Assembly (NCBI GenBank): GCA_002844335.1
Contig: CP019155.1
Location: 434,001-498,000 of the forward strand
DNA: 64,000 nt
Reading direction: 5' to 3'
DNA from: Haloarcula taiwanensis
GTDB lineage: Archaea > Halobacteriota > Halobacteria > Halobacteriales > Haloarculaceae
This document shows positions 19,557 to 41,711 of this stretch, piece by piece (within the stretch, counting starts at the first letter, position 1; each line of letters opens with the position of its first letter). Below the pieces are notes generated by a model. That model was given only the letters and a program-made list of their open reading frames with translations. It was not told the origin of the DNA and made no database searches. The translations under genes were made by a program, and so were the position numbers.

Positions 19557-20855
19557 TTATCCGAATAGGCTGGCCCGGCCGGGGAGTATCTGCTCTGAAC
19601 GCTCGGGTTGTCGGTCAAACACCGCTACAACTGGGGCGGCATCAGAGAGATGTGGCAGTATGTATTCGCCCTCAGCGTGTTCGATAGTAACCGTCTCTGT
19701 GCCGAACAGCGAATCGAGAGGCGTCTTCTCGACGCGGAGGCGCTGTTCCTCCCACGATTCGATGCGCCAGAGTGCCGTGCCAAACAGATGGTCGTATGCC
19801 ATGAGCGTACCGTTGTCAGCGTCGATTCGGTATTCGATGGCCCCGTATCGCAATAGCTGATCGAGACATAACAGGAGAACCGGGATGCTAACGCTTGTGA
19901 CAACAATCACGGCAACGATGTCCCACGCACCCCCAATTGCAAACAGGACCGCAACGAGGAGTCCTATGGCGCAGAGAAACACGCTTCCCGGGTGATGTGG
20001 GAACCGGAGGGGGCCGCCGATGACCCGTCCCCAGCGAACCGGGCGAAGGCGTTCAGATGCCTCAGCGAGCGTCTCGTCGATAGATCGTGCTTTCGATGGG
20101 GCCGTTTGCCAGCCGTAGTCCTGATCGTACGACTTGAAATAGACGGCGAGACGGTCGCTGTAGACACCCAAGAGGTCAGATGTGAATTTGAAACAGACGA
20201 CCATGAGTACCATCGGCAGTCCGACGACAGTCGGGTCAAGACTGCCGAGTTCTGCTTCAGGCCCCTCTGTGGCCGCTGTTATGAGCGTCAGAGTGAGTAT
20301 GCCCCCGAAAAAGACAGTTACCATTCGCGGTAACAGGCCACGAAAGGCCGTCGTCGAGTTGTGTTTCCGGTACGCGCCGTTGTAGAAGTAGTTCCGTACC
20401 GTTGTCACACCCGTCAGAACGAAAATACCGACCGTTGCCAGCAGCACACCAGAGACCGTCTCTGTGCTGGGCTCCGGCAGTGGACCGATTAGCAGGGCCC
20501 CAGTAAATACCCAGACTCCTGCCAGGACGAGAACGGTCACTGGAAGCGCGAGTACCGTCGTGAGATAGACCCGTAGATCGGTTCGCGGGATAGAGAGGGC
20601 GAACTGTCGTTCCGCCAGTGGCCCGATAAGTAGGGTGCCAGTCTCGATAGTCGGCGGGCGGCCAGCGAACACTGCCCGAACGAGTGCCCAGACCGAGTCG
20701 ACGCCAAGCTCAAACCAGTACAGAAACAGCAGTGCAGCTGCACTCCAGTCAAGGAACGCAACACCAACAATCGGGAGCGAATTCGAGGCGATGGTGCCGA
20801 GTAGCTCTGTCCGACGGCTATCCTCTGTCCGGAGAACCCGTCTGGTGGAGGGCAT
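19557..20855 (-). CDS. DUF6498-like multi-membrane protein
   Basis: 432 residues. N-terminal half with about eight helices including SNSLPIVGVAFLDWSAAALLFLYWFELGVDS and TVRNYFYNGAYRK; the C-terminal third has a PH-like segment YGAIEYRIDADNGTLMAYDHLFGTALWRIESW. This fits the haloarchaeal DUF6498 membrane family. A second, diverged copy lies at 39913-41301, sharing the N-terminal ANCIPLVGV/SNSLPIVGV pattern and the later YGTIEY/YGAIEY ... AYDRL/AYDHL segment. Function unknown. Confidence 0.75.
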   Translation of the reverse strand: MPSTRRVLRTEDSRRTELLGTIASNSLPIVGVAFLDWSAAALLFLYWFELGVDSVWALVRAVFAGRPPTIETGTLLIGPLAERQFALSIPRTDLRVYLTTVLALPVTVLVLAGVWVFTGALLIGPLPEPSTETVSGVLLATVGIFVLTGVTTVRNYFYNGAYRKHNSTTAFRGLLPRMVTVFFGGILTLTLITAATEGPEAELGSLDPTVVGLPMVLMVVCFKFTSDLLGVYSDRLAVYFKSYDQDYGWQTAPSKARSIDETLAEASERLRPVRWGRVIGGPLRFPHHPGSVFLCAIGLLVAVLFAIGGAWDIVAVIVVTSVSIPVLLLCLDQLLRYGAIEYRIDADNGTLMAYDHLFGTALWRIESWEEQRLRVEKTPLDSLFGTETVTIEHAEGEYILPHLSDAAPVVAVFDRQPERSEQILPGRASLFG

Positions 20856-22880: not shown

Positions 22881-23360
22881 TCAATCGAGCCGATTTTGGG
22901 AGCCAGCACGGCCCTCTCTTATCGCGTGTCTGGCGAGCAGGCCAGCGGTTGTGAACCAGAGCGCGACTTCGAGGAAAAATGATGGACTCCAGAGGTAGTA
23001 CACGAAGAACGACCCCGGTGGGAGCGCCAGTGGGTCCGTGGGAGTGACACCAGGCCAAAACAGAAAGACCGCATCGCCGGGGCGGCCGTTGAGAACGACG
23101 TGGACAGTATCGAGGAGGAGATGTAGCGCCCAGCCAACTGCCGCCGACAGTCCGGTCCGGCCTGAGAAAGCCAGCGGGAGCGCCACGACCACGAGCAGTA
23201 CAGAGTGGCCGATAGAGTGATACAGCGGCGTGACACCGACCGATGCTAGCGGCTTGTCTACCACGTCCGGAAGTGCGGTCCCGACCACAAGCCACAGCGG
23301 CGACAACCGCGACAGCCGTCCCAGAAGCGCGGCCGCGAGCAGGTGTGTCGGGAAGAGCAT
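22881..23360 (-). CDS. YdjM/DUF457-type membrane metal-hydrolase-like protein
   Basis: 159 residues. MLFPTHLLAAALLGRL, the pair VVGTALPDVVDK, YHSIGHS and HLLLDTVHVV are the His/Asp-rich positions of the LexA-binding, inner-membrane-associated putative hydrolases. About four helices. Start is the ATG at 23360. Sits 25 bases after the CDP-alcohol phosphotransferase gene on the same strand, so probably in its operon. Confidence 0.75.
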   Translation of the reverse strand: MLFPTHLLAAALLGRLSRLSPLWLVVGTALPDVVDKPLASVGVTPLYHSIGHSVLLVVVALPLAFSGRTGLSAAVGWALHLLLDTVHVVLNGRPGDAVFLFWPGVTPTDPLALPPGSFFVYYLWSPSFFLEVALWFTTAGLLARHAIREGRAGSQNRLD

Positions 23361-23385
23361 ACGAAGAGGTAGGGACAGAGACGTA

Positions 23386-24159
23386 TCAACGCTGCCGGTC
23401 GAACCACTCACGGGGAAGTCGACCGCTAGCGACGAGGAAGTCACGGAGGAACACCATCAGCGACGGTGCAATGACGACCGGTGTGAGCCTGAAGACCAGT
23501 CCCGTCGGCGCAGTAGGGACGAGCGAGGCGGTAATAAACACCATTTGGACGCCGGCGAGATACTTCCCGAGATCGCTGTCAGGCCGCTCAAAGACGGGTC
23601 GGTTGCGGTATCGCCGCCAGCGAATCCCGCCGACGTAGACGTAGCGAGCAGCCGACAGTGAGAGATACAGAGCGGGGAGCTGACCCCAGAGAACTGCGAC
23701 AAGCGGTGCAACCACGAACCCGAACGTGTCGAAGGCCATGTCTAACCGCGTGCCCAGCTGGGTCTGTTCGCCGACGGTTCGGGCGACGGTGCCATCGAGC
23801 CTATCGAGCACAACCCCAGCGCCGTAGCAGACCGCCGGGACCCAGACGAGTTCGGTCGTCATCGGCACCACGAGAAAGCCAGCGACGACAGCATAAAGCC
23901 CACCGCGAAGTAGCGTTACCGTGTTTGCAATCCCAAAGGTGTAGCGCCAGGGGTTACCGGTAGCCGGCGTGACACTGACCGTTCGGCCGACGTACCAGAG
24001 CTGTCCGGCCCAGCAACAGCCTGCGACGACCGCCGGGTGGAACAGCCAGTGGGTCATCGCGTCTGCGGGGAACAGCACGCCGACAATCCCGGCGATAACG
24101 AACCCGCCGATCACCGAAAGTTCGACAGGGATTGCGCCGTCACCGTGTTGCTCGGCCAT
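23386..24159 (-). CDS. CDP-alcohol phosphatidyltransferase family enzyme
   Basis: 257 residues, about seven helices. The full family motif is present: Asp122-Gly123-x2-Ala126-Arg127-x8-Gly136-x3-Asp140-x3-Asp144 within LDGTVARTVG...RLDMAFD. These enzymes transfer a phospho-alcohol group from CDP-alcohol to an acceptor alcohol. An extra N-terminal pair of helices (residues 14-55) precedes the usual domain. It lies next to a pterin/sugar-type gene cluster, so the acceptor may not be an ordinary core lipid; that is inference. Confidence 0.86.
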   Translation of the reverse strand: MAEQHGDGAIPVELSVIGGFVIAGIVGVLFPADAMTHWLFHPAVVAGCCWAGQLWYVGRTVSVTPATGNPWRYTFGIANTVTLLRGGLYAVVAGFLVVPMTTELVWVPAVCYGAGVVLDRLDGTVARTVGEQTQLGTRLDMAFDTFGFVVAPLVAVLWGQLPALYLSLSAARYVYVGGIRWRRYRNRPVFERPDSDLGKYLAGVQMVFITASLVPTAPTGLVFRLTPVVIAPSLMVFLRDFLVASGRLPREWFDRQR

Positions 24160-24204
24160 CGAAACCTCCCCGGTACCGTCTGTCTGCCGTCACAGTAGCA
24201 CAGC

Positions 24205-24588
24205 TCATCGCAACAGCGCAACGAGGACTGCCAGCAGGACAAGCTGTGCGACCTTGTCGACCGCACCCAGTGTCCCGACATCAGCCGGGAATGATTTCGG
24301 TCCGGCGGCGAAATTGACGTAGTACCACAGCAGGATCTGGACGGCCGTGAACGGGACACCGGCGGCGTAGACGAGGCGACGGCGAATCCCCAGGCCGACC
24401 AGCGCGACACCACCCAGAAACCCAAGCCCCGCGAGGATGAAACTGATACCCAGAGCGGAGGGGGCCAGCCTGATACCGAGCAGGAGGTGTACCGCCGCCG
24501 AGACCAGTGCCGCCACGATACCGAGCCAGTGTCGGCTGTCCAGCGAAGCTACGTCGAGTGAACGTCCCTGTGTTTCCGTCGCGGTCAT
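24205..24588 (-). CDS. Four-helix membrane protein
   Basis: 127 residues with four hydrophobic helices (near 20-40, 45-66, 70-92, 105-126), as in small haloarchaeal DUF proteins. Start is ATG at 24588 (MTATETQGRS). Upstream of the CDP-alcohol phosphotransferase by 45 bases and downstream of the reductase fusion by 49 bases, all on the minus strand. Function unknown. Confidence 0.65.
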   Translation of the reverse strand: MTATETQGRSLDVASLDSRHWLGIVAALVSAAVHLLLGIRLAPSALGISFILAGLGFLGGVALVGLGIRRRLVYAAGVPFTAVQILLWYYVNFAAGPKSFPADVGTLGAVDKVAQLVLLAVLVALLR

Positions 24589-24637
24589 GTTTTGGATTCG
24601 GGTTTCAGTCACATAATCATACTGCCAATTGCACCGC

Positions 24638-26608
24638 TCACCGCTCGAAATCCGGTTGCTGAAGTGCCTCGATGCGGGCAGACGTCTCTGTGTCGAGTCG
24701 CTGCCCAGCTGCGACGAGGTTTTCGACGATATGAGACGGTGTCGTACTGGACGGAATCGGAATGACCCCCTGTGTGACGTTCCACGCCAGCACCACACCG
24801 GCCGAGGAAAGGCCGTACTCCTCTGCGATATCCGTCAGGACAGGCTCGTCGAGCAATCCGGGAGCCGACAGCGGCGAGTGGGCCACGACTCTGATGCCGC
24901 GCTCGTGGCAGTACTCGACGATGTCTGTCCGTGGCTGGTACGGATGGCGTTCGATTTGGACGAGTGCCGGCCTGATAGTCCCAGTTTCGATAACGGTCTC
25001 CAGTTGCGTCTGTGAGACGTTACAGAGGCCGAGCGTGCGCGCCCAGCCCCGTTCGTGGAGTGCCTCCAGATTCTCCCAGGCGCGCTGGAGCGGAATCGAG
25101 TCCGTCTCGATGTCGCCCCCATCATCCTCGGGGAAGGTCAACGCTTCCTGACGCGCGACCGGTTTCTCGGCCAGGCGTTCCAGTGGTCCGCGGTGCGCCC
25201 ACGCCTCGGGCCAGTGGAGCGCGTAGCAGTCGAAGGCGTCGACACCGAGCTCGTCGAGACTGCCCCGACAGGCCGTCACCATGTGCTCCCGGCGGTGGTT
25301 CGTGCGCCAGACTTTCCCGAGCAGGAACACCCGACGCCGGTCGGGTGCGCCCGGGGCGGCGAGAATGCGGCCGATACGGTGTTCATTGCCGTATAGTTCG
25401 GCGCTGTCGAGCAGTCGATAGCCAGCGTCGAGGGCCGTCGCGATGGAGTCCGCGCGCTCGACGTACGTTCCGTCACGGTAGCGGGAACAGCCAAAGCCGA
25501 CGGGGGGTAGCCGAATCGCCCCCGCCCGTCCACTGCTTCGGGCGCTGTCTGGAGTGACGGTCGGCGCTGGCGGCGGGGCGGCCGACACCCCATGTCCGGA
25601 CACGACTTCCGGCTCACCCGTCTCCGCAGCCGTTTCAATCGCATTACAGACCGCGACGATGTGGGCACCACGGCGACCAGTCTTCCGGGACGGAGACCCA
25701 CGGTTGACACTGGCCGCAAGCGACTCCACAGGGTCGAGATAGCGGTACGGTTGCGTAGGGTGCTGGGCGGGAGCGTCGATGTATTCGCGACCAGATCGGC
25801 CGTAGCGAACGGCTTCGGGGCTGTCGGCCATTGCGCCGGTCCCACGGAGGTATACTGACCCGTCGTCGCCGTGAAGTTCGAGTCCGTAGAACTCCCGGCT
25901 CCGGTGTGGCGCGTAGAAGCTCGCGGTCAGCCGGACTGTCAATCCGCCGGCAAAGGAAAGCATCGCCTCGACATGGCTCGGGACCGATGGCCGCTTTGGC
26001 TCCCGGTCAGGCCAGCTATCGAGTGCAGTCGCGGACTGAACAGATTTGACGGGGCCGAACCACGAGACCAGCAGCGCGAGCGGGTAGACGCCGCCGTCGT
26101 ACAGCGGCCCGATAGAGAGAAACGAATCGGGGCGGTCGTGCCATTCGGTCACGCGGCCGACGTGGGCGTGGGCATACCCCAGCTGAACGGGCCCCATGCG
26201 ACCGTCGGCGAGCAATCGTCCAGCACGACGCTGCGACGGCGCGTCGGGCGTCCCCGGGGCACAGCCCAGTGCCAAGTCCTTATCACCGGCTAGCGACAGT
26301 AGCTCCGCGGCCACCGTCTCTTCCAGCGCCAGCGGCTTCTGCGAGTAAACGTGTCGCCCTGCTTCCAGCGCCGTTCGGGTCACCGGTGCGTGGGCGGCGT
26401 GGTTCGTCAGGTTCACCACCAGCGGCGCGTCAACGCCGCTGAGCGCGGTATCGAGGTCGGTAAACGCTGGACAGCCGTGCGCGCCGGCGAGTGACGCAGC
26501 CCGGTCTCCGTCGAGGTCGCAGACTCCCGCCAGCGAGAGTGGGCTATCTGCCAGCTCGGCCGCGTACTCCGCCGCGATACTGCCCGCACCGACGAACAGA
26601 CACTGCAC
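24638..26608 (-). CDS. Gfo/Idh/MocA oxidoreductase fused to aldo/keto reductase
   Basis: 656 residues. Residues 1-345 are Gfo/Idh/MocA-like: VGAGSIAAEYAAEL (Rossmann loop), VVNLTNHAAHAPVT and YSQKPLAL (the usual EKP reads QKP, lysine kept). After a Pro/Ala linker (about 350-370), residues 370-656 are an aldo/keto reductase with all four catalytic residues: Asp and Tyr in LLDSAELYGNE, Lys in LLGKVW, His in YALHWPEAW. Two NAD(P)H redox sites in one chain suggest oxidation and reduction of one sugar-like intermediate. The GTG at 26608 is about 28 bases from a TATATATA box; upstream ATGs lie in that box. Confidence 0.82.
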   Translation of the reverse strand: MQCLFVGAGSIAAEYAAELADSPLSLAGVCDLDGDRAASLAGAHGCPAFTDLDTALSGVDAPLVVNLTNHAAHAPVTRTALEAGRHVYSQKPLALEETVAAELLSLAGDKDLALGCAPGTPDAPSQRRAGRLLADGRMGPVQLGYAHAHVGRVTEWHDRPDSFLSIGPLYDGGVYPLALLVSWFGPVKSVQSATALDSWPDREPKRPSVPSHVEAMLSFAGGLTVRLTASFYAPHRSREFYGLELHGDDGSVYLRGTGAMADSPEAVRYGRSGREYIDAPAQHPTQPYRYLDPVESLAASVNRGSPSRKTGRRGAHIVAVCNAIETAAETGEPEVVSGHGVSAAPPPAPTVTPDSARSSGRAGAIRLPPVGFGCSRYRDGTYVERADSIATALDAGYRLLDSAELYGNEHRIGRILAAPGAPDRRRVFLLGKVWRTNHRREHMVTACRGSLDELGVDAFDCYALHWPEAWAHRGPLERLAEKPVARQEALTFPEDDGGDIETDSIPLQRAWENLEALHERGWARTLGLCNVSQTQLETVIETGTIRPALVQIERHPYQPRTDIVEYCHERGIRVVAHSPLSAPGLLDEPVLTDIAEEYGLSSAGVVLAWNVTQGVIPIPSSTTPSHIVENLVAAGQRLDTETSARIEALQQPDFER

Positions 26609-26629
26609 ACTCCAATGGAGGCGTCCTCG

Positions 26630-26637
26630 CATATATA
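26630..26637. promoter_or_regulatory. Shared divergent TATA region
   Basis: CATATATATCATA lies about 28 bases from the GTG of the reductase fusion (minus) and 46-60 bases before the start of the plus-strand AP-fold gene, so it may serve both. Confidence 0.5.
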
Positions 26638-26697
26638 TCATACCGCCGGTGGGACTTTAGTCGCCGCCACCGAATAGCGGACGTGACAGAACCGGGG

Positions 26698-27567
26698 ATG
26701 AGCCGGCTAGGCACGGCGTACTTGCGAACGTTGCAGGCGCTGGGCCAGTGGATTCCGTACGGAACGACCATCTATGAACGCAACTGGGACGTGCTCATCG
26801 TCCTCGACGCCTGTCGCGCGGACCTGTTGCAGACGGTTGCCTCCGATACCGAGTTGTTCAACGCTGTTTCGACGGTCCGCTCTGTCGGGAGTTCGTCCTC
26901 GGAGTGGCTCGAAAACACGTTCCCCGGGCATCCAGAGACATCTCACACCGTCATGGTCACCGGCAATACGTGGACCGACAGGTACCTCGATGCCGACGCC
27001 TTCGCCGTACTGGACGAGGTCTGGAAGTACGCGTGGGACGAGGATCTGAACACCGTCCCGGCTGAAGCCGTAACCGACCGGGCAATCGCACTGGCCCGGC
27101 GGCTGAACCCCGAGCGGCTGGTCGTCCACTACATGCAACCACACCACCCGTTTGTCCCCGACCCGCTTGACAGCGACGGCGGTCTGGCCCGCACTGGCCA
27201 CCACAGCAACACGGCAAATCCGTGGGTTGCGCTCCGCCGTGGCGATATTTCGCCGGGCCGCGTCTGGGACGCATACGAGGCGAACCTCCGATACGTCCTC
27301 CGCGAAGTAGAAGCACTGGCCGAAAACGTCGACGGTCACCTCGCCGTCACCGCCGATCACGGTAATCTCTTCGGGGAGTGGGGGCTGTACGGCCATCCGA
27401 TGTACACGCCGGTCCCTGCCTTACTGGCGGTGCCGTGGGCCGAGACCGACGGCGTCGACGGCGGGGGGCGCGAGCCCGACCTGCGTCCACCCGAACCGCT
27501 TCCAGTGTCGCGCGTCTATGGTTCCGAGAGCGACAGCTGCCGGCTGAAGTCACTGGGGTATTTGTAG
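26698..27567 (+). CDS. Alkaline-phosphatase-superfamily (sulfatase-like) protein
   Basis: 289 residues. The metal-site motif is VLIVLDACRADLL and the second site VTADHGNLFGEWGLYGHP; PHHPFVPD also matches sulfatase relatives. The N-terminus up to residue 25 is short, so it is a compact member. An in-frame GTG at 26683 would add VTEPG. Divergent from the Gfo-AKR fusion and 131 bases before the MDR gene. It ends KSLGYL like the protein at 12544. Substrate unknown; phosphoester or sulfoester hydrolysis is the family chemistry. Confidence 0.76.
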   Translation: MSRLGTAYLRTLQALGQWIPYGTTIYERNWDVLIVLDACRADLLQTVASDTELFNAVSTVRSVGSSSSEWLENTFPGHPETSHTVMVTGNTWTDRYLDADAFAVLDEVWKYAWDEDLNTVPAEAVTDRAIALARRLNPERLVVHYMQPHHPFVPDPLDSDGGLARTGHHSNTANPWVALRRGDISPGRVWDAYEANLRYVLREVEALAENVDGHLAVTADHGNLFGEWGLYGHPMYTPVPALLAVPWAETDGVDGGGREPDLRPPEPLPVSRVYGSESDSCRLKSLGYL

Positions 27568-27698
27568 TCAATCGGAGATACTTTTTAGTCAGAGAAGGCC
27601 TGGATAGGAGACGTGTCTTCCCGGAGCCGTCGCCACGTCCAGAAGAGTTGGCATCGAAACATCGGCACCGGCCATCCACGTTTCCAAGAGACAGTGTA

Positions 27699-28679
27699 AT
27701 GTCTGCCAGAACGCTGTACTTTACCGGCGCGGAATCAGTCAGGGTCGACGAGGAGGCAGTGCCTGACCCCGGACCATCACAGGTCCGCGTCCGAACAGAA
27801 CTCTCAGGAATCAGTCCCGGAACGGAGCTGTTAGTGTACCGCGGTGAGGTCGATTCGGAACTTGCGACCGACGAGACAATCGACGCCTTAGATGGGACGT
27901 TTTCGTATCCACTGCAGTACGGCTACGCCGCAGTCGGCCGTGTCACCGCCATCGGTGCTGAAGTCGACGACAACTGGCTCGACCGTCGTGTGTTTGCGTT
28001 TAATCCACACGAGAGCCACTTTCTCGCAGAACCGTCGTCGCTCATTCCCACGACGTTACCCCCGGAACAGGCGGTGTTCATGCCGAACGTCGAGGCGGCC
28101 GTTAACTTCGTGATGGACGCTCGACCGCGCATCGGTGCTCGGGTGGTCGTCTTCGGCCAGGGGCCGGTCGGACTGTTGACCACTGGACTTCTGGCTGATT
28201 TTCCGTTGGCGTCACTTGTGACAGTCGACCCCTGTGCAAGCCGTCGTCGGCTCTCAGAAGCACTCGGGGCAGACCGTTCGGTCACCCCCGGAAATCTCGG
28301 TGATGTTGACGCCGACATCACGTTCGAACTCTCGGGAAACCCACCCGCCCTCGACAGGGCTATCGACGCCACTGGCTACGCGGGTCAGGTCATCGTCGGG
28401 TCGTGGTACGGCTCGAAGGGTGTGTCACTGGACCTCGGACACCACTTCCATCGGAGCCACATCCGCGTACGCAGCAGTCAGGTGAGCCGAATCGATCCGG
28501 ACCACGCTGACCGCTGGGACAAGGACCGCCGACTGGACGTTGTCCGGTCGTGGCTGAGCGACACTGACCTCTCGGCGCTGTTGACACACGAAATCGACAT
28601 CGAGCGTGCAGGCGAGGCATATCAACTGCTGGCGAACCGGCCAGACGACGCCGTGCAGGTGGTGTTGACGTACAACTGA
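27699..28679 (+). CDS. MDR dehydrogenase without catalytic zinc ligand
   Basis: 326 residues, medium-chain dehydrogenase fold. At the position of the catalytic zinc Cys it reads SGISPGTELLVYRG, so Cys is absent, and no structural-zinc four-Cys lobe is present. The NAD(P) loop is VVVFGQGPVGLLTTGLL with Asp in VTVDPCASRR. This resembles the BchC-like/threonine-dehydrogenase-like group. A NAD(P)-dependent alcohol-ketone step on a sugar or polyol is likely. First gene of a plus-strand set with PTPS-fold, GT4 and methyltransferase genes (39-base gap, then 4-bp overlaps). Confidence 0.8.
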   Translation: MSARTLYFTGAESVRVDEEAVPDPGPSQVRVRTELSGISPGTELLVYRGEVDSELATDETIDALDGTFSYPLQYGYAAVGRVTAIGAEVDDNWLDRRVFAFNPHESHFLAEPSSLIPTTLPPEQAVFMPNVEAAVNFVMDARPRIGARVVVFGQGPVGLLTTGLLADFPLASLVTVDPCASRRRLSEALGADRSVTPGNLGDVDADITFELSGNPPALDRAIDATGYAGQVIVGSWYGSKGVSLDLGHHFHRSHIRVRSSQVSRIDPDHADRWDKDRRLDVVRSWLSDTDLSALLTHEIDIERAGEAYQLLANRPDDAVQVVLTYN

Positions 28680-28718
28680 CACCCGTGATTTAGGTGTGTC
28701 CCGGCCGTCTGTTCGGGC

Positions 28719-29096
28719 ATGTACGCGACGACGGTCCGGACCGAGTTCGTGGCACAGCACTACCTCACTGTCCCGGACCCGGGCCCAGAGGGAGACCCGC
28801 ATTCACATCACTACCGGGTGGAACTGTGTTTCCGCGGCCCCGAGCTCAACGAGTTCGACTACATCGTCGACATCGACAATGCCGAGACAGCCTTGTCGTC
28901 ACTCGCTGACCGGTATCAGGACACACTGCTCAACGACCTCCCAGAGTTCGAGGAGTATAATCCCAGCGTGGAACGGTTTGCCCGTGTCATCTTCGAACGC
29001 GTCATTGCGCGTGTCACCGACGAGACGGTCACTGAACTATCGGTCACCGTCTGGGAGGACGAAGACGCCGCTGCGAGTTACGACGCCGCCGTATGA
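28719..29096 (+). CDS. 6-pyruvoyl-tetrahydropterin synthase-fold protein, catalytically altered
   Basis: 125 residues of PTPS/QueD fold. The three zinc histidines are kept (His14 in FVAQHYL, His28/His30 in HSHHYRV) as is the pterin-anchoring Glu113 (TVWEDED). The catalytic Cys upstream of the HxH is missing (PDPGPEGDPHSH), and the usual LDHxxLN dyad reads YQDTLLND, so His is lost. It therefore probably binds a pterin-like ligand or does other chemistry. It overlaps the GT4 gene by 4 bp. A TATA-like GATTTAGG at -30 may give its own transcript. Confidence 0.8.
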   Translation: MYATTVRTEFVAQHYLTVPDPGPEGDPHSHHYRVELCFRGPELNEFDYIVDIDNAETALSSLADRYQDTLLNDLPEFEEYNPSVERFARVIFERVIARVTDETVTELSVTVWEDEDAAASYDAAV

Positions 29097-30160
29097 GAGT
29101 CGGCCTGACCCTGTACGGGAGCCTCGACGAGCAGTCGGGCGGGTTTCGATACGATAGAAAACTCGTCAAGGGACTTCGAGCGGCCGGCGACACTGTCGAA
29201 TGTATCCAGCTTCCCTGGCGGAACTACCACCGTGGGTTGCTCGACAACGGGTCGCGCAAGCTCCGACGACAACTGGACGTAGATGTCGACATTATGTTAC
29301 AGGACGAACTCGCTCATCCATCGCTTGTTCACACGAACCGCACCCTCCCATATCCGGTTGTCAGCATCGTCCACCACCTGCGGGCAAGCGAGCCGAGCCG
29401 ACTCGCCCCGCTGTATCGCGCGGTAGAGCGTCGCTACCTCGGGACGGTCCACGGTGTCGTCTGTAACAGCGCCACGACCCGACGTGTCGTTTCGGACCTC
29501 GGCGTCAACCCCGCCGACACCGTCGTCGCACCGCCGGCCGGCGACCGCTTCGCCCCGGACATCGACCGGGCCACGGTTGCGGAGCGGGCCACTACTGAGC
29601 CGCTGCGAGTGGTTTTCGTCGGAAACATCACGCCTCGAAAGGGGTTGGATACGCTCGTCGAGGGTGTGGCGGACGCTGCCGCCGACATCGACATCACGGT
29701 GGTCGGTCGGGCCGTCGACGACGGGCACGTCGATGCAGTCCGAGACCGCATCCGGGAACACGGTCTGGATGACCGTGTAGCGTTCACGGGCCGACTGGCG
29801 GACGACGAGCTAAAGCACACGCTCCGGTCGAGCCACGTCTTGGCAGTGCCATCCCGGTACGAGGGGTTCGGCATCGTCTATCTGGAGGGAATGAGCTTTG
29901 GCCTCCCGGCGCTGGCCACCCGGGCTGGCGGGGCGACCGACATCGTAACCGACGGCGAAACGGGGGCACTCGTCGACCCGGACGACTCTGCAGCCGTCGC
30001 TCGTGAGCTGGAGCGGTTCGCCACCGACCGCGACCGCCTGGCCGAGATGGGGTGGGCCGCGAGACAGAGCTACGAGGCACACCCGGACTGGGAAGAGACG
30101 GTCGGACGGGTACGCGGCCTGCTGTCTGCTATCGTTCAGCCTGCGGAGGGACCAGCATGA
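29093..30160 (+). CDS. GT4-family glycosyltransferase
   Basis: 355 residues, GT-B fold. The C-terminal domain begins VFVGNITPRKGLDTLVEGV, and the donor-site pattern E-x7-E is in the stretch EGFGIVYLEGMSFGLPAL, followed by ATRAGGATDIVTDGETGALV. It lacks a signal peptide and acts in the cytosol on a nucleotide sugar. Acceptor unknown; the coupled PTPS-fold gene upstream and methyltransferase downstream suggest a small molecule. 4-bp overlaps on both sides. Confidence 0.88.
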   Translation: MRVGLTLYGSLDEQSGGFRYDRKLVKGLRAAGDTVECIQLPWRNYHRGLLDNGSRKLRRQLDVDVDIMLQDELAHPSLVHTNRTLPYPVVSIVHHLRASEPSRLAPLYRAVERRYLGTVHGVVCNSATTRRVVSDLGVNPADTVVAPPAGDRFAPDIDRATVAERATTEPLRVVFVGNITPRKGLDTLVEGVADAAADIDITVVGRAVDDGHVDAVRDRIREHGLDDRVAFTGRLADDELKHTLRSSHVLAVPSRYEGFGIVYLEGMSFGLPALATRAGGATDIVTDGETGALVDPDDSAAVARELERFATDRDRLAEMGWAARQSYEAHPDWEETVGRVRGLLSAIVQPAEGPA

Positions 30161-31095
30161 CGAAATCGTTCCAGCGATATCTCCGGGCAAAACGGACAGT
30201 CGACGACCGCGCGCTGGACCGCCGGCTGGTCAAGCTGCTCCGCGAGCAGTTGGCTGACCGGGCGACCGACAGCGACGGGCCGCTACGCATCCTCGAAATC
30301 GGGGCTGGTATCGGCACGATGCTCGCCCGCTTCCTCGACTGGGACGTGCTTCCTGCCGGCGAAGTCCACTACACCGCAGTCGATCTCCAGTCGGAGAACG
30401 TGGCTCGCTTGCCAGACCACATCCGGAACTGGGCCGCTGACCGGCAGATGTCTGTGAGAGACGGGCCGCTCGTCTTGGACAGCGAAAACCGGCGAGTCGA
30501 GATTGAGGCGGTGCAAGCCGATGCTGTGGCGCACGCGACGGGTACTGACGGCGAATACGACCTCCTCGTTGGGGCAGCCCTGCTCGATATTCTCGACCGG
30601 CGGGAGCTGCCGACATTGCTCGATCCGCTCGCACCGGGTGGCCTGTATTACTTCCCGCTCACATTCGACGGGGCAACCCGCTTCCAGCCGAGCCATCCGG
30701 CCGACCGGACGGTCGAACGACTCTATCACGAGCACATGGACGGGAAGCAGGGCGGTGACAGCCGCGCCGGCAGCGACGTGCTCGGTCGCCTCCAGCGCCT
30801 CGACGGCACAACGCTTTCAGCTGTTGCCGGGTCGGACTGGGTTGTCCGACCTATCGACGGGAGTTATCCGGCCGACGAAGCCTACTTCCTCCGATACATT
30901 CTCGACACTATCGAGGATGCAGTCGGCGAGGTGGCCGGTCGCGACTTCGAGGGACTCGCCGACTGGCTGGCCGGCCGGCGTGAGCAGGTCGCTGCTGCTG
31001 AGTTGCTGTATCACACACACCAATTGGACTTCCTGGGCCGTGCCGTCACCCGTCGGTCTTCCGGCGAATCGTGGCCGTCGCCTCGTATGAAATAA
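30157..31095 (+). CDS. Class I SAM-dependent methyltransferase
   Basis: 312 residues. The SAM motif LRILEIGAGIGTML (about 44-57) and a motif-II-like YTAVDLQSENV are clear; LAPGGLYYFPLTFDGATRF is the later strand. The family is close to SAM enzymes found beside GT4 and PTPS-fold genes. Starts at ATG 30157 overlapping the GT4 stop by 4 bp, and its 3' end overlaps the convergent MaoC gene by 50 bp. Methyl acceptor unknown. Confidence 0.8.
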   Translation: MTKSFQRYLRAKRTVDDRALDRRLVKLLREQLADRATDSDGPLRILEIGAGIGTMLARFLDWDVLPAGEVHYTAVDLQSENVARLPDHIRNWAADRQMSVRDGPLVLDSENRRVEIEAVQADAVAHATGTDGEYDLLVGAALLDILDRRELPTLLDPLAPGGLYYFPLTFDGATRFQPSHPADRTVERLYHEHMDGKQGGDSRAGSDVLGRLQRLDGTTLSAVAGSDWVVRPIDGSYPADEAYFLRYILDTIEDAVGEVAGRDFEGLADWLAGRREQVAAAELLYHTHQLDFLGRAVTRRSSGESWPSPRMK

Positions 31096-32564: not shown

Positions 32565-33329
32565 CTACGTCTGCGATTCAATTCGCTCGAACAGTGTTTC
32601 CACGAGGTCAACGAACCACTGCGCACTGCGGTTACGGGGCCGAGATTCCGCCACTGAAACCGTTGCTCGAACGCGCCCCGGCGTGCCGGACATGATGACA
32701 ATCCTGTCCGAGAGCGCAACGGCCTCCTCGATGTCATGGGTTACGAACAACACGGTTTTATCGGTGCCACGCCAGATGTCGAGCAGTTCGCGTTGGAGTT
32801 GTCGGCGTGTCTGCATATCCACGCTGCCAAAGGGCTCGTCCAACAAGAGGATAGCTGGGTCCACAGCGAGTGCGCGCGCAAGACCGACGCGCTGTTTCAT
32901 ACCACCTGAGAGTTCCTTCGGGTATGCATCAGCAAAGTCAGACAATCCAATAATAGCTAGCATTTCTCGGACTCGCTCCTGCCGCTCAGCAGCCGGCACT
33001 CCCCGCTCCACTAATCCGAAGGCGACGTTTTCTCGGACTGTCAGCCACGGAAACAGGTGGTACTCCTGAAACACCGTTCCCCGATTCGGGTCAGGGCCTT
33101 GAACCGGCTTCCCCGAAACTGTGATATCACCGTCTGTTGGTGGCTCCAGTCCACTTACAAGCCTGAGAAGTGTGGTCTTCCCGCAGCCTGACGGGCCAAC
33201 CACGGTGACGAACTCGCCAGATGAGACACGCAGCGACACGTCACGGAGGGCTGTCGTAACTCTGCCTTCCCTTTCGTATTGCTTGGAGACCCCGCGGATG
33301 GCGATTTCGGTATCCGTGCTGTCTCTCAT
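32565..33329 (-). CDS. ABC importer ATPase, nitrate/sulfonate/taurine type
   Basis: 254 residues. Walker A GPSGCGKTT, Q-loop VFQEYHLFPWL, signature LSGGMKQRVGLARAL, Walker B ILLLDEPFG, and His in THDIEEAV. The SsuB/TauB/NrtD subgroup fits the GxVFQE and FPWLTV motifs. It energises uptake through the permease encoded upstream (4-bp overlap). Confidence 0.92.
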   Translation of the reverse strand: MRDSTDTEIAIRGVSKQYEREGRVTTALRDVSLRVSSGEFVTVVGPSGCGKTTLLRLVSGLEPPTDGDITVSGKPVQGPDPNRGTVFQEYHLFPWLTVRENVAFGLVERGVPAAERQERVREMLAIIGLSDFADAYPKELSGGMKQRVGLARALAVDPAILLLDEPFGSVDMQTRRQLQRELLDIWRGTDKTVLFVTHDIEEAVALSDRIVIMSGTPGRVRATVSVAESRPRNRSAQWFVDLVETLFERIESQT

Positions 33330-34150
33330 TGTTGCCAGTCGAGGAGGTGGGCACGAACTCGCCGGACGGCCCAGTCGCTGAGCAGGAACACCACACTAAT
33401 CACCAGCATATACGCGATGCTACGCGCCATCGCGAGGTTGTTCGCGCTCGTAATAATTTCGTATCCGACACCGGGCGCACCGAACAATTCGGCTGCGATC
33501 ACCATCATCCAGCACTGGCCAACGCTCGTACGGACTCCGGTCAGAATCCCCGGTAATGCATCCGGGATGACGACCCGCCACAGCAGCCGACGATTGCTAT
33601 CGACACCCAGTGTCGTAGCGACCTCGACTAGCTCGTTCGAGGCGTTCTCGACCCCCTCGTACGCATTATAGAACGTAATCCAAAATGCACCGATGAACAC
33701 AATAAAGGCCGCACCGGTGTGACCGAGTCCAAGCCAGATGATGGCGAACACGATCCACGCCAATGGTGGAATCGGCCGGAGCACCCGCACGATGGGTGTG
33801 AGGACGGCGTCAATGACCAGACTCCAGCCCATGCCGATGCCGAGTAAACCGCCAGCCACAACGCCACCGGCGACACCGGGAACGTAGTGGAGGAGACTCT
33901 CTCCGAGATGAACAAGTAATTCGCCGCTAACCAGCTCGGTCCACAGCGCGCCCGCCACCTCGCTGGGTGTCGGCAACAGGTACGACGGAACTTCACGACC
34001 CCCTGCCCACCAGACTGCCAGAAATCCAGCCGCTCCCACGAATCCATACCACAGACGTGTCAGATTCCATTCTCGGCCGAACGCAATCGTGGTTGTCGGC
34101 TGGGAGCGGATGCCGGATGAGTCCGCTACTGGGTCAAATTCTGTGGCCAT
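33326..34150 (-). CDS. ABC importer permease, nitrate/sulfonate/taurine type
   Basis: 274 residues with about six helices. The EAA loop ATTLGVDSNRRLLWRVVIPDALPGILTGVR is the ATPase contact of SsuC/TauC-type permeases. ATG at 34150 lies 2 bases... directly after the substrate-binding gene stop; upstream in-frame codons belong to that gene. Overlaps the ATPase start by 4 bp. Confidence 0.92.
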   Translation of the reverse strand: MATEFDPVADSSGIRSQPTTTIAFGREWNLTRLWYGFVGAAGFLAVWWAGGREVPSYLLPTPSEVAGALWTELVSGELLVHLGESLLHYVPGVAGGVVAGGLLGIGMGWSLVIDAVLTPIVRVLRPIPPLAWIVFAIIWLGLGHTGAAFIVFIGAFWITFYNAYEGVENASNELVEVATTLGVDSNRRLLWRVVIPDALPGILTGVRTSVGQCWMMVIAAELFGAPGVGYEIITSANNLAMARSIAYMLVISVVFLLSDWAVRRVRAHLLDWQQ

Positions 34151-34151
34151 C

Positions 34152-35240
34152 CTATTCGGCGATGTCGTCGTAGAGTGACTGCTCGAAGATCTCGTCGGTA
34201 GACACTCCGCTATTGATCTGGCCGAGGTCCTCCATCTGCGCAGCGAAAAGCTGCGTACTCTCTGTAATCTGTGCCGGGTCGCTGATGTAGTTCGAGGCCT
34301 TCGACGTGAGGGCTTTCCGGGCAATCTTCGTCGGGAGTTTGTCGCCTTTGGCCTTACTCACAGCCTTCGCAGCGACGGCCGGCTGTTCCTGGATGGTTTC
34401 AGTAGCACGCGAATGTTGGGTAATAACAGACTTCGCGATGTCCGGGTGATCGTTCCAGAGGCGGTCGTGCATGAACATGATGCCGCCAGGCTGGCCGGAC
34501 ATGAATGAGCCAGCCCACGTAATGCGCTCGAAGGGTGCGCCTCTCTGTTCAAGCGCAGTCGGGATGGGCTCCATAATGACAGTGCCATCGACGTTCCCAG
34601 AGAGCAGCGAGCGTTTGACGGGGCTACCACCTGCCATCGGTTCAATGTCAACAAGGTCCGGGGAGAGTCCAAGTTCCTCGCGGAGCCAATAGTGGAGAAG
34701 GATAAACGCGACACTGCCCCTGGGGAAGGTGCTGAACTTGAATTTCCGCCCGTTTTCCTCACGGAAGACCCGGAAAGCGTCGGCACCGTGTTCATCCCAG
34801 AGAGCAGCAAAGTCCTCGTGAGCGAATACGACAAACCCGTTCTTGTGATTGGCCGCTGTGACTTTCCCCGGGACATCCTTACTCTTCATCTTGATCGCAG
34901 GGGTGATGCCCATGAAGGCGAGGTCAATGTCCCCGTCAGAGTACGCTGAAACGATGGTGAGACCCTCATTAGCGAAGTTCGTCGCCTCGATATCGGGAGC
35001 TAGCGCTTCAAAGTACCCCTGATGCTTCATTACGTGGTACTGGAGGAACGGGAACGGTGGCTTGAATGCCACGCTGAGGGTGTCCATGGAGTTGCCACTG
35101 AGCAGAGACGTACACCCAGAGAGGGCGGTAAGTGTACTTGCGCCGACTGCTGCACCGGTTTCCGTGAGGAAACGTCGTCTACTCTGGATACGTGTCCCGT
35201 CGGACCGATTCGAGTTATTAGGGCAGCCTAAATTAGGCAT
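34152..35240 (-). CDS. ABC importer substrate-binding lipoprotein, SsuA/NMT1-like
   Basis: 362 residues. SRRRFLTETGAAVGASTLTALSGC is a Tat signal with lipobox LSGC. Mature part matches NMT1/SsuA: LSVAFKPPFPFLQYHVMKHQGYFE, AYSDGDIDLAFMGITPAIKM, GSPVKRSLLSGNVDG. Ligand likely a sulfonate, nitrate or similar small anion, or a pyrimidine precursor; not resolvable. First gene of the operon. Its ATG lies inside a palindrome (see regulatory entry), so expression is probably repressed by a DNA-binding protein. Confidence 0.88.
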   Translation of the reverse strand: MPNLGCPNNSNRSDGTRIQSRRRFLTETGAAVGASTLTALSGCTSLLSGNSMDTLSVAFKPPFPFLQYHVMKHQGYFEALAPDIEATNFANEGLTIVSAYSDGDIDLAFMGITPAIKMKSKDVPGKVTAANHKNGFVVFAHEDFAALWDEHGADAFRVFREENGRKFKFSTFPRGSVAFILLHYWLREELGLSPDLVDIEPMAGGSPVKRSLLSGNVDGTVIMEPIPTALEQRGAPFERITWAGSFMSGQPGGIMFMHDRLWNDHPDIAKSVITQHSRATETIQEQPAVAAKAVSKAKGDKLPTKIARKALTSKASNYISDPAQITESTQLFAAQMEDLGQINSGVSTDEIFEQSLYDDIAE

Positions 35241-39912: not shown

Positions 39913-41301
39913 TCAGATCCGAGACAGCGCGACGTACAACAAGATACCAGCGTGAATCACGGCGAACGGTCCGATAACAACCAGTGAAGCGTAGGCTGTT
40001 CCCGAGTCGATTCCGGGGGCGAGGAACAGCCCGGCTGGTACTGCGAGAAAAAAGAGCAACAGGCCGCCGGCAGCTGCGATGATCGTTGGATCCCGCTCTG
40101 GCCGTTCCGTTTGGTGTACTGGAAGCTGTAGCGTGTTGATTGCTTCGTCGAGATCAGACAGCGGGCCGAACTGCACGCTACCTCCGTCGACCGAATCAAC
40201 GCCAGTGATTCGTAACCGGCCCGTGTCACGAAGCCGGTCGACGATAGCGTTAATAACGGAAAAGTCGGTTCCCGGACCGACCGTGGCAATCCACTGCGGT
40301 GACTCCAACAGTCGGTCGTAAGCGACCAGAAACTCGCCCCGGCGTTGGTACTCGATCGTTCCGTAGCGGAGGTAGAAACTCAGCATACGAGCACCGATAA
40401 TACAGAGAAGTACGACCGAGAGCAGCCCGATCCAGACCGGGTGACCGATCTGTAGCGCGACGACAAGCGCCGCGACAGTGAGAAGTGTGAACCGCGAGAC
40501 TAGTGCGAACCCGACGGCGCTGAGACTTCCCAGTATAACGGACTTCTTGTCGACGACAACACTGGCTTCGACCGGCTCTTCAGGCATCTTTGGCTCCGGT
40601 GGCGGTTCGCTTCTGGGCAAGTCATCTGAAAGGTCTATATTCACATCGAGAAGCGACCCTCCGAAATGCTCCACGTAGAACCGGTAGACCGAACTGAGTG
40701 TTTTTCCGATGACAAGTCCCGTTAGCAGCGTTATACGACCGGCACGGGACCCACCCAGCGTGAGAAGCCCGACAAAGAGCAGTACCAAGGTCAACTGTGC
40801 CGGTGTCCGGATCAGTTCCTGCGCAGACACGTCGCGATACTCACCGGTGCCGATGTACTCAACCACGAACTCCTCGATCTGTGAGAACAGCAACGCCGCG
40901 ATGCTCACAGCGAGGCCCACTGAGACCTGAATCGCCGGCCCGAGCGTCATGAGGTAGACAAGGCTGATCGGCCCGATGAATCCGAACCAGACCCCCAACA
41001 CCGTGAGCGCGAAAGGAATGTTCCGTGGATAAATCGGTGGCAAATTCGAATAGAGCTGAAAACTACCGCGTTTCTCCCGGAGTTCATGTAACGGCTCGTG
41101 CTGTCCGGGACGTCCCGGAGATCCCTGCTCAGCGAACAGGGCCTTCGTCGCTGCGATGAGGACTGAAAAGGCGGCCTCAGCTGTGTAGACAACGAGTAAT
41201 AGCCAGAGGTCCCAGCCCCAGGCAGTGACTCCGACCAGCGGAATACAGTTCGCAGCGATTACACCCAGACCGCGGACGAAAGTCGGGAACCGCTGGGTCA
41301 T
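39913..41301 (-). CDS. DUF6498-like multi-membrane protein
   Basis: 462 residues with about nine helices (AANCIPLVGVTAWGWDLWLLLVVYTAEAAFS..., NIPFALTVLGVWFGFIGPISLVYLM, etc.) and a C-terminal PH-like part YGTIEYQRRGEFLVAYDRLLESPQWI. It is a diverged relative of the protein at 19557-20855. ATG 41301 (MTQRFPTF) preferred; an ATG 12 bases upstream adds MLPI. Function unknown. Confidence 0.72.
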   Translation of the reverse strand: MTQRFPTFVRGLGVIAANCIPLVGVTAWGWDLWLLLVVYTAEAAFSVLIAATKALFAEQGSPGRPGQHEPLHELREKRGSFQLYSNLPPIYPRNIPFALTVLGVWFGFIGPISLVYLMTLGPAIQVSVGLAVSIAALLFSQIEEFVVEYIGTGEYRDVSAQELIRTPAQLTLVLLFVGLLTLGGSRAGRITLLTGLVIGKTLSSVYRFYVEHFGGSLLDVNIDLSDDLPRSEPPPEPKMPEEPVEASVVVDKKSVILGSLSAVGFALVSRFTLLTVAALVVALQIGHPVWIGLLSVVLLCIIGARMLSFYLRYGTIEYQRRGEFLVAYDRLLESPQWIATVGPGTDFSVINAIVDRLRDTGRLRITGVDSVDGGSVQFGPLSDLDEAINTLQLPVHQTERPERDPTIIAAAGGLLLFFLAVPAGLFLAPGIDSGTAYASLVVIGPFAVIHAGILLYVALSRI

Positions 41302-41711
41302 GATTGGTAGCACTCAAGTCGTTACACCTGAACAACAAACATACTTCGAATTCGATAGCACGGCTGAACTGCACCTGTATGACCGTTGCCAGTACAGTAC
41401 AGAGAGGCCGTCAAGAACAGAAGGTATCGCCAGAAACCACAACCCTCCCGTCACAGGATTTCAGGCCGATGTGGCCCTGCGGTTTCCACACGCATACCCT
41501 CCAGGCGTTTCCTGCTGGGTTTCAGCATCGGCGTGGCTATGGCGACTTTTCAGAATTGCACACCTGAATCGCTGACTGCTTTTCGTAAGCTGCGGGCCGT
41601 GTAGCCCCACTTTATACGCGGGTGCGCCTCTTATGCTGTTCGGCTCGGGGCAGTTGCTGGGTCTGATACTCTAGGTAAGACATTTTTAGAATGCGATCAA
41701 ACATTAACCAG
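41302..41711. other. Intergenic region without recognised gene
   Basis: About 410 bases, no protein-like frame. The right edge has ACATTTTTAG (41677-41686), the TATA box for the small membrane protein starting at 41712. Confidence 0.4.

Follow-up and report, generated by a model that had tools for sequence, protein, structure and literature searches.

A conserved haloarchaeal and bacterial gene unit around a PTPS-fold protein is likely to branch from GTP through a riboflavin-type pyrimidine

Introduction

The 64,000-nucleotide stretch of Haloarcula taiwanensis DNA analysed here (the window; CP019155.1, positions 434,001 to 498,000) contains adjoining genes for a medium-chain dehydrogenase (MDR), a PTPS-fold protein, a GT4 glycosyltransferase and a methyltransferase (MT). 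Which pathway do these genes serve, and from which precursor does it start? An earlier interpretation made from the letters of the DNA (the sequence-only reading) assigned them, together with several neighbours, to one uncharacterised pathway producing a modified pterin- or sugar-containing small molecule or a phospholipid-linked glycoconjugate. We found that MDR, PTPS and MT form a conserved unit that is gained and lost together, and that the gene set is a variant of GTP-derived pteridine/flavin biosynthesis without an assigned product in the searchable literature. It is very probably a dedicated branch that runs from GTP through a riboflavin-type diaminopyrimidine. The idea of one pathway is therefore retained for the conserved set, but its entry point is changed to GTP via a riboflavin-type pyrimidine, whereas the pterin product, its glycosylation and its lipid attachment are what we infer.

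Results

Core genes of the cluster

The core of the cluster and the glycosyltransferase gene are arranged as follows.

27696-28679, plus strand (alternative start 27699): MDR, zinc-less medium-chain dehydrogenase, BchC/polyol-dehydrogenase-like, with the cofactor motif GQGPVG; core.
28719-29096, plus strand: PTPS-fold protein, COG0720, SCO6650-like (PF01242, 1e-26); core.
29093-30160, plus strand: GT4 glycosyltransferase (Pfam, 8e-35), overlapping the PTPS gene by 4 bp.
30157-31095, plus strand: MT, class-I S-adenosylmethionine (SAM)-dependent methyltransferase, otherwise of unassigned family, overlapping the GT4 gene by 4 bp; core.

The MDR gene lies 39 bp upstream of the PTPS gene, and the 4-bp overlaps at the PTPS/GT4 and GT4/MT junctions, which had been noticed before, both read ATGA. 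By sequence, the label "zinc-less" is right for the MDR, because SPGTELLVYRG and GYAAVG replace the usual zinc-ligand motifs CGxxxH and GHE. The Pfam match of MT is weak (Methyltransf_25, 4e-4), and its AlphaFold2 model clearly predicts the fold of a class-I SAM methyltransferase. The fold neighbours of MT include many small-molecule methyltransferases with comparable scores and point to no substrate. The closest solved structures to GT4, which are Tll1590, MshA-type, PimB-type and tetrahydrobiopterin (BH4) glucosyltransferase, all match at a similar level and give no hint of its acceptor.

Conservation among haloarchaea

Co-occurrence was analysed in 145 related haloarchaeal genomes, of which 65 contain the PTPS gene and 80 do not, using Fisher tests whose p-values take the genomes as independent and ignore shared ancestry. 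Gene neighbourhoods were compared in 40 loci, each spanning some 20 kb around a PTPS homologue. The MDR gene is present in 64 of the 65 PTPS-positive genomes and in none of the 80 PTPS-negative ones (p=6e-41), and the MT gene in 63 and 2, respectively (p=5e-36). Each of them adjoins PTPS in 38 of the 40 loci. A further 80 loci, partly from the same species, included 67 longer than 15 kb, with MDR in 62 and MT in 59. This clustering is far beyond chance. Only 14 of 32 Haloarcula genomes contain the set, and across this genus PTPS and MDR still coincide exactly. A remnant of MT, 81 residues long and 63% identical, persists in the PTPS-negative genome G023 (L208:7856-8098), from which the rest of the set is absent, and suggests that the set was lost recently. 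The window locus is situated on a 525-kb plasmid-like replicon (C2), and in relatives it is found on megaplasmids such as pNG700 of Har. marismortui. The PTPS proteins of the window and of Haloarcula vallismortis are 98% identical. In two records of plasmid pNG700 (L219:8001-8374; NZ_CP039137), a frameshift breaks the PTPS gene in two; no coding sequence is annotated there, and the neighbours are intact.

The accessory genes lie to the left of the core.

22881-23444, minus strand: membrane protein adjoining the CDP-OH gene, without a Pfam match and YdjM-like by reading only; accessory.
23386-24159, minus strand: CDP-alcohol phosphotransferase (CDP-OH), a membrane protein with complete active-site motif; accessory, strongly co-occurring.
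24205-24588, minus strand: DUF7475 small membrane protein (PF24287, 3.7e-10).
24638-26641, minus strand: Gfo/Idh/MocA oxidoreductase fused to an aldo-keto reductase (Gfo/AKR; Pfam); accessory.
26698-27567, plus strand: alkaline-phosphatase/sulfatase-superfamily protein (AP; Pfam Sulfatase, 7e-4); accessory.

The CDP-OH protein contains the whole motif DxxDGxxAR(x8)GxxxDxxxD. Its gene is present in 60 of the 65 PTPS-positive genomes as opposed to 3 of the 80 PTPS-negative ones (p=8e-31), occurs in 34 of the 40 loci, and is on the same strand and in the same run in L141, L216 and L220. DUF7475 is present in 32 of the loci, Gfo/AKR in 29, AP in 20 and the membrane protein next to CDP-OH in 19. 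The Gfo/AKR fusion is found in 37 PTPS-positive genomes and one PTPS-negative genome (p=1e-15). The Gfo/AKR, AP and membrane genes have a patchy distribution and frequently lie on the other strand. The window-type GT4 is present in 28 loci, and 12 loci without it contain an alternative GT4-type gene.

All the genes named in the sequence-only reading are present, and Pfam supports PTPS, GT4, CDP-OH and the Gfo/AKR fusion. Pfam supports MT and AP only weakly, and the assignment of MT is strengthened by its predicted fold. The proposed membership holds for MDR, PTPS and MT, whereas AP and Gfo/AKR are less tightly tied to the unit. The pathway idea had been made dependent on the genes being conserved together, and the neighbourhood comparison found them together across orders and domains.

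Copies in bacteria

Outside the haloarchaea, the unit is also found in Salinibacter, in purple sulfur bacteria, in rhizobia, and in Methylosinus and Streptomyces, accompanied by GTP cyclohydrolase II (GCHII) and/or a deaminase-less RibD_C protein. The gene order MDR-PTPS-GT4-MT was found on plasmids of Ca. Thiodictyon, Rhizobium, Peteryoungia, Neorhizobium, Methylosinus, Microbacterium and Streptomyces, mostly with ribA, a RibD_C protein and/or CDP-OH close by, whereas Palleronia and Rhodobacteraceae SC52 have the order MDR-PTPS-MT-RibD. The window shares with clusters of the SCO6650 type, named here after a Streptomyces coelicolor protein, a PTPS homologous to SCO6650 and adjoining MDR, GT4 and MT genes of the same families in the same order. 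The cluster of S. fungicidicus, whose PTPS is 92% identical to SCO6650, comprises MDR, GT4, MT, CDP-OH, a creatininase and a GCHII of the methionine type described below. The Salinibacter locus L153 also contains the Gfo/AKR fusion. The archaeal and bacterial families are homologous over their whole lengths for both PTPS (hhalign, 1.5e-20) and MT (hhalign, 6e-31).

Some bacterial copies of the cluster include a cytochrome b561-type gene (L216:10528-11082, L225:11058-11582, L227:11026-11565). On a few Streptomyces plasmids, a PTPS of the SCO6650 type stands alone, without MDR or MT, near genes for cupin and metallo-β-lactamase (MBL)-fold proteins (L228:9001-9426, L230:9001-9399). A scan of viral contigs with PTPS as the query found no relative.

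Enzymes of the entry from GTP

ArfA (GTP cyclohydrolase III) adjoins PTPS in 22 of the 40 haloarchaeal loci. It is encoded in 136 of the 145 genomes, and at least two matches (2-4) occur in 23 of the 65 PTPS-positive genomes compared with 4 of the 80 PTPS-negative ones (p=2.5e-6). The cluster copies are placed in several parts of the ArfA tree, with at least three changes forced by well-supported branches. This scatter indicates that, allowing for losses, ArfA was recruited more than once. Genomes G015 and G021 have four ArfA-type matches each, which is beyond what the cluster explains. The sole ArfA of the window genome is encoded away from the cluster (C1:807604), so the early steps would be shared there with riboflavin synthesis, through the housekeeping arfA and other riboflavin genes. 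The span outlined by the sequence-only reading lacks partners found elsewhere: the window cluster has neither an ArfA nor a creatininase gene, whereas close relatives have ArfA (L035, L036) and creatininase (L035, L036, L047/pNG700).

In Salinibacter, a GCHII-RibD_C fusion is encoded directly upstream of MDR, and the genomes also contain a separate complete RibD with its deaminase. All eight stand-alone RibD_C proteins tested from bacteria lack a deaminase domain. At the position of Escherichia coli Tyr105, the GCHII has methionine in both Streptomyces clusters that contain a creatininase, and tyrosine in all six cluster GCHII without one. The sample is small but coherent, and the methionine would be that expected for a formyl-retaining cyclohydrolase. 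We take it to be the switch residue of SCO6655 from S. coelicolor. Spoonamore and colleagues reportedly found that, owing to Met120, SCO6655 yields the formylamino pyrimidine, which is also the product of archaeal ArfA. The creatininase-family protein BrbF of Sinorhizobium is a proven formamidase acting on this same intermediate, AFRPP (PMC9478397), but it has a housekeeping riboflavin role, and a tie to PTPS or MDR has not been reported.

Since the partners of the unit are ArfA in archaea and GCHII with RibD_C in bacteria, the precursor is probably a riboflavin-type ribosyl- or ribityl-diaminopyrimidine. Dihydroneopterin from GTP cyclohydrolase I is not demonstrably the precursor, and neither that enzyme nor MptA was noticed among the recurrent neighbour families of the loci.

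The PTPS-fold protein

The AlphaFold2 model of the window PTPS (pLDDT 94.9) is most similar to the structure of the uncharacterised protein SCO6650 (PDB 3d7j; TM 0.90, Z 18.3, 1.6 Å over 125 residues), which precedes QueD both in the model comparison and in a profile search. Like PTPS, QueD and PTPS-III of COG0720, the protein has the Pfam domain, the T-fold, the zinc histidines and the C-terminal glutamate that anchors the pterin. Zinc ligands H14, H28 and H30 and residue E113 are invariant in the family alignment, and one member of the wider haloarchaeal set (L060) has asparagine at position 28. Unlike in QueD, the Cys-Asp-His catalytic triad is replaced according to the alignment (Cys27 by Glu24, Asp70 by Arg/Gln67 and His71 by Asp68), and Glu24 and Asp68 are invariant. 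The protein reads EGDPHSH where QueD/PTPS-I have CxxxHGH, YQDTLLN in place of the QueD catalytic Asp-His motif LDHxxLN, and ExxxHSH instead of the ExxHGH of PTPS-III (motif definitions from PMC5041015).

Discussion

Proposed pathway

A pathway can be proposed based on the conservation and co-occurrence of the genes, the exchange of cyclohydrolases, the lack of a deaminase beside the reductase and the loss of the PTPS triad; the steps from MDR onwards and the product are what we infer. GTP would be opened by ArfA in haloarchaea or GCHII in bacteria to a formylamino- or diamino-ribosylaminopyrimidinone 5'-phosphate, and the formyl form would lose formate through a creatininase-family formamidase. 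A reductase of the RibD_C/ArfC type would then produce 2,5-diamino-6-ribitylamino-pyrimidinone phosphate with the 2-amino-4-oxo edge kept. The reductase is not accompanied by a deaminase, so the 2-amino group, which is what a PTPS-type glutamate recognises, should stay in place. The zinc-less MDR, using NAD(P), would oxidise a ribityl hydroxyl, most plausibly at C2', to a 1-deoxy-ribulosyl intermediate, the same one that GTP cyclohydrolase I reaches by Amadori rearrangement. The PTPS-fold protein would bind the 2-amino-pyrimidinone edge via its conserved glutamate and close the ring to a dihydropterin. The core would be methylated by MT and glycosylated by GT4, and in most lineages CDP-OH would attach a lipid phosphate (archaetidyl or phosphatidyl). 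Glycosylation is likely where GT4 is present, with its gene wedged between those of PTPS and MT. Lipid attachment is plausible because the CDP-OH enzyme is common to archaeal and bacterial copies.

At the level of the pathway, a dedicated branch from GTP via the riboflavin-type pyrimidine is very probable. We give the explanation as a whole, an early riboflavin branch leading to a methylated, glycosylated and possibly lipid-linked pterin-like product, a probability of roughly 0.5. The preferred chemistry, with reduction at C1', oxidation at C2' and ring closure to a dihydropterin, is tentative, at about one in three. Several points weigh against the proposal. We can only guess in which order MDR, PTPS, MT and GT4 act, and C2' is the most plausible site of oxidation only in being the most economical one. 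No GTP cyclohydrolase or reductase adjoins the window copy, in which it differs from the SCO6650-type cluster. The haloarchaeal loci searched for a RibD_C homologue contained none, so the reductase there would be shared with riboflavin synthesis or not needed. The Salinibacter RibBA (L157:844-2091) has lost the zinc cysteines of its GCHII (HSQNVLGDALAARRESYSEQL). The GCHII of the cluster is therefore perhaps the only active one there and may supply riboflavin synthesis as well. Bacterial PTPS relatives keep the anchoring glutamate (E120) and have HGA instead of HSH; the third zinc histidine is thus lost, and metal-dependent ring closure is not common to all members. GT4 and CDP-OH are missing from the Rhodobacteraceae SC52 locus (L229), and no GT4 was found in L152, so not every copy of the unit would glycosylate its product or attach a lipid.

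Alternative explanations

The same entry from GTP to a diaminopyrimidine might lead to a product other than a pterin if MDR and PTPS alter the ribityl- or ribosyl-diaminopyrimidine differently, such as an open-chain nucleoside analogue or a deaza- or triazine-type ring like that of toxoflavin, which is then methylated and glycosylated. Toxoflavin synthesis, also fed by GCHII with RibD homologues and a methyltransferase, provides a precedent, and with the PTPS triad and a bacterial zinc ligand lost, the known pterin chemistry is not required. However, the conserved pterin-anchoring glutamate (E113 in the window, E120 in bacteria) and the likeness to the QueD-type T-fold fit a pterin-like ligand, and the loci showed no further enzymes for building a ring. 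A non-pterin product is rather unlikely. Two modules may instead travel together, one for a pteridine or pyrimidine (ArfA or GCHII, RibD_C, MDR, PTPS, MT) and one for an independent glycolipid (GT4, CDP-OH, Gfo/AKR, AP, membrane proteins), so that the small molecule is neither glycosylated nor lipid-linked. The SC52 locus, with MDR-PTPS-MT-RibD and without GT4 or CDP-OH, would agree with such a division, as would the patchy, often opposite-strand Gfo/AKR, AP and membrane genes. Nevertheless, GT4 is embedded between PTPS and MT with overlapping frames in the window, Peteryoungia and Rhizobium, and CDP-OH not only co-occurs with PTPS but is in a same-strand run in Natronorubrum and Thiodictyon. 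We therefore consider separate modules a minority possibility.

An auxiliary function in the synthesis of F420 or riboflavin itself is suggested by the linkage to ArfA, by the Salinibacter cluster GCHII, which may be the only functional one there, and by an unpublished F420 role of the COG0720 subfamily PTPS-IV mentioned in a review (PMC5041015). It is nonetheless very unlikely. CofH is present in all 54 haloarchaea tested, with or without the cluster, and has only weak similarity in Salinibacter; this distribution, independent of the cluster, argues against a general F420 role. About half of the complete haloarchaeal genomes lack the cluster while nearly all keep ArfA, and no function would be evident for a second ArfA, for GT4 or for MT. 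An essential or housekeeping riboflavin role was rejected, as the set is present in 65 of the 145 genomes against 136 for ArfA, and extra ArfA copies occur. That the protein is simply a QueD or a folate enzyme of the PTPS-III type, with incidental neighbours, is highly improbable. Such a function is implied by its public annotation, 6-carboxytetrahydropterin synthase, but the genome has another PTPS-family gene, likely QueD (C1:2531938), and the ExxxHSH motif, the replacement of the catalytic histidine by aspartate and the co-occurrence with MDR and MT do not fit it. The distribution also argues against a role in archaeosine synthesis.

Relation to known systems

SCO6650 and SCO6655 are the nearest counterparts, through the structure of the former and the ArfA-like product of the latter. 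The haloarchaeal PTPS differs in keeping HSH where the bacterial proteins have HGA, and the haloarchaeal cyclohydrolase is ArfA rather than GCHII. We know of no published pathway or product for the pair. The archaeal riboflavin/F420 route (ArfA, ArfB, ArfC) uses the same GTP-opening family, and its deformylation and reduction are mirrored in the bacterial loci. In contrast to that route, the loci have no recurrent genes for a deaminase, RibB, RibH, RibE or Cof proteins, the spread is patchy, and many cluster-bearing genomes have a dedicated extra ArfA.

Known pterin glycosides include the cyanobacterial BH4 glucoside and the archaeal solfapterin and halopterins, the latter from haloarchaea; their synthesis begins with GTP cyclohydrolase I or with enzymes of the MptA type. 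The combination of PTPS with a GT4-type glycosyltransferase resembles them, but GT4 of the window matches the BH4 glucosyltransferase at the general GT4 level only, and no sepiapterin reductase was seen. A literature search for the gene combination returned nothing and no assigned product, although it does not fully exclude an earlier published assignment.

The apparently unassigned pathway has been kept from haloarchaea to Streptomyces, while its first enzyme was swapped for non-homologous equivalents. It ties together several orphans, namely SCO6650, the formyl-retaining SCO6655, the extra haloarchaeal ArfA copies and the stand-alone RibD_C proteins, and corrects the automatic name of these PTPS genes. 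Its product is likely to be a new pterin-type cofactor or lipid. We speculate that archaea and bacteria share a second pterin route, independent of GTP cyclohydrolase I and with a repurposed PTPS for ring closure, whose end product is a pterin with methyl and sugar groups and a phospholipid anchor. Such a compound might serve as a membrane redox carrier, an idea that stems from the cytochrome b561 gene in several bacterial copies; this extended scenario is unlikely.

Other genes of the window

To the right of the cluster, at 32565-35240, the window encodes an ATP-binding cassette (ABC) importer consisting of an ATPase, a permease and a substrate-binding protein, of nitrate/sulfonate type by reading. 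An ABC importer also adjoins the cluster in the closest relative (L033). The region is flanked by two similar-looking multi-pass membrane proteins, encoded at 19557-20855 and 39913-41313, which are perhaps paralogues.

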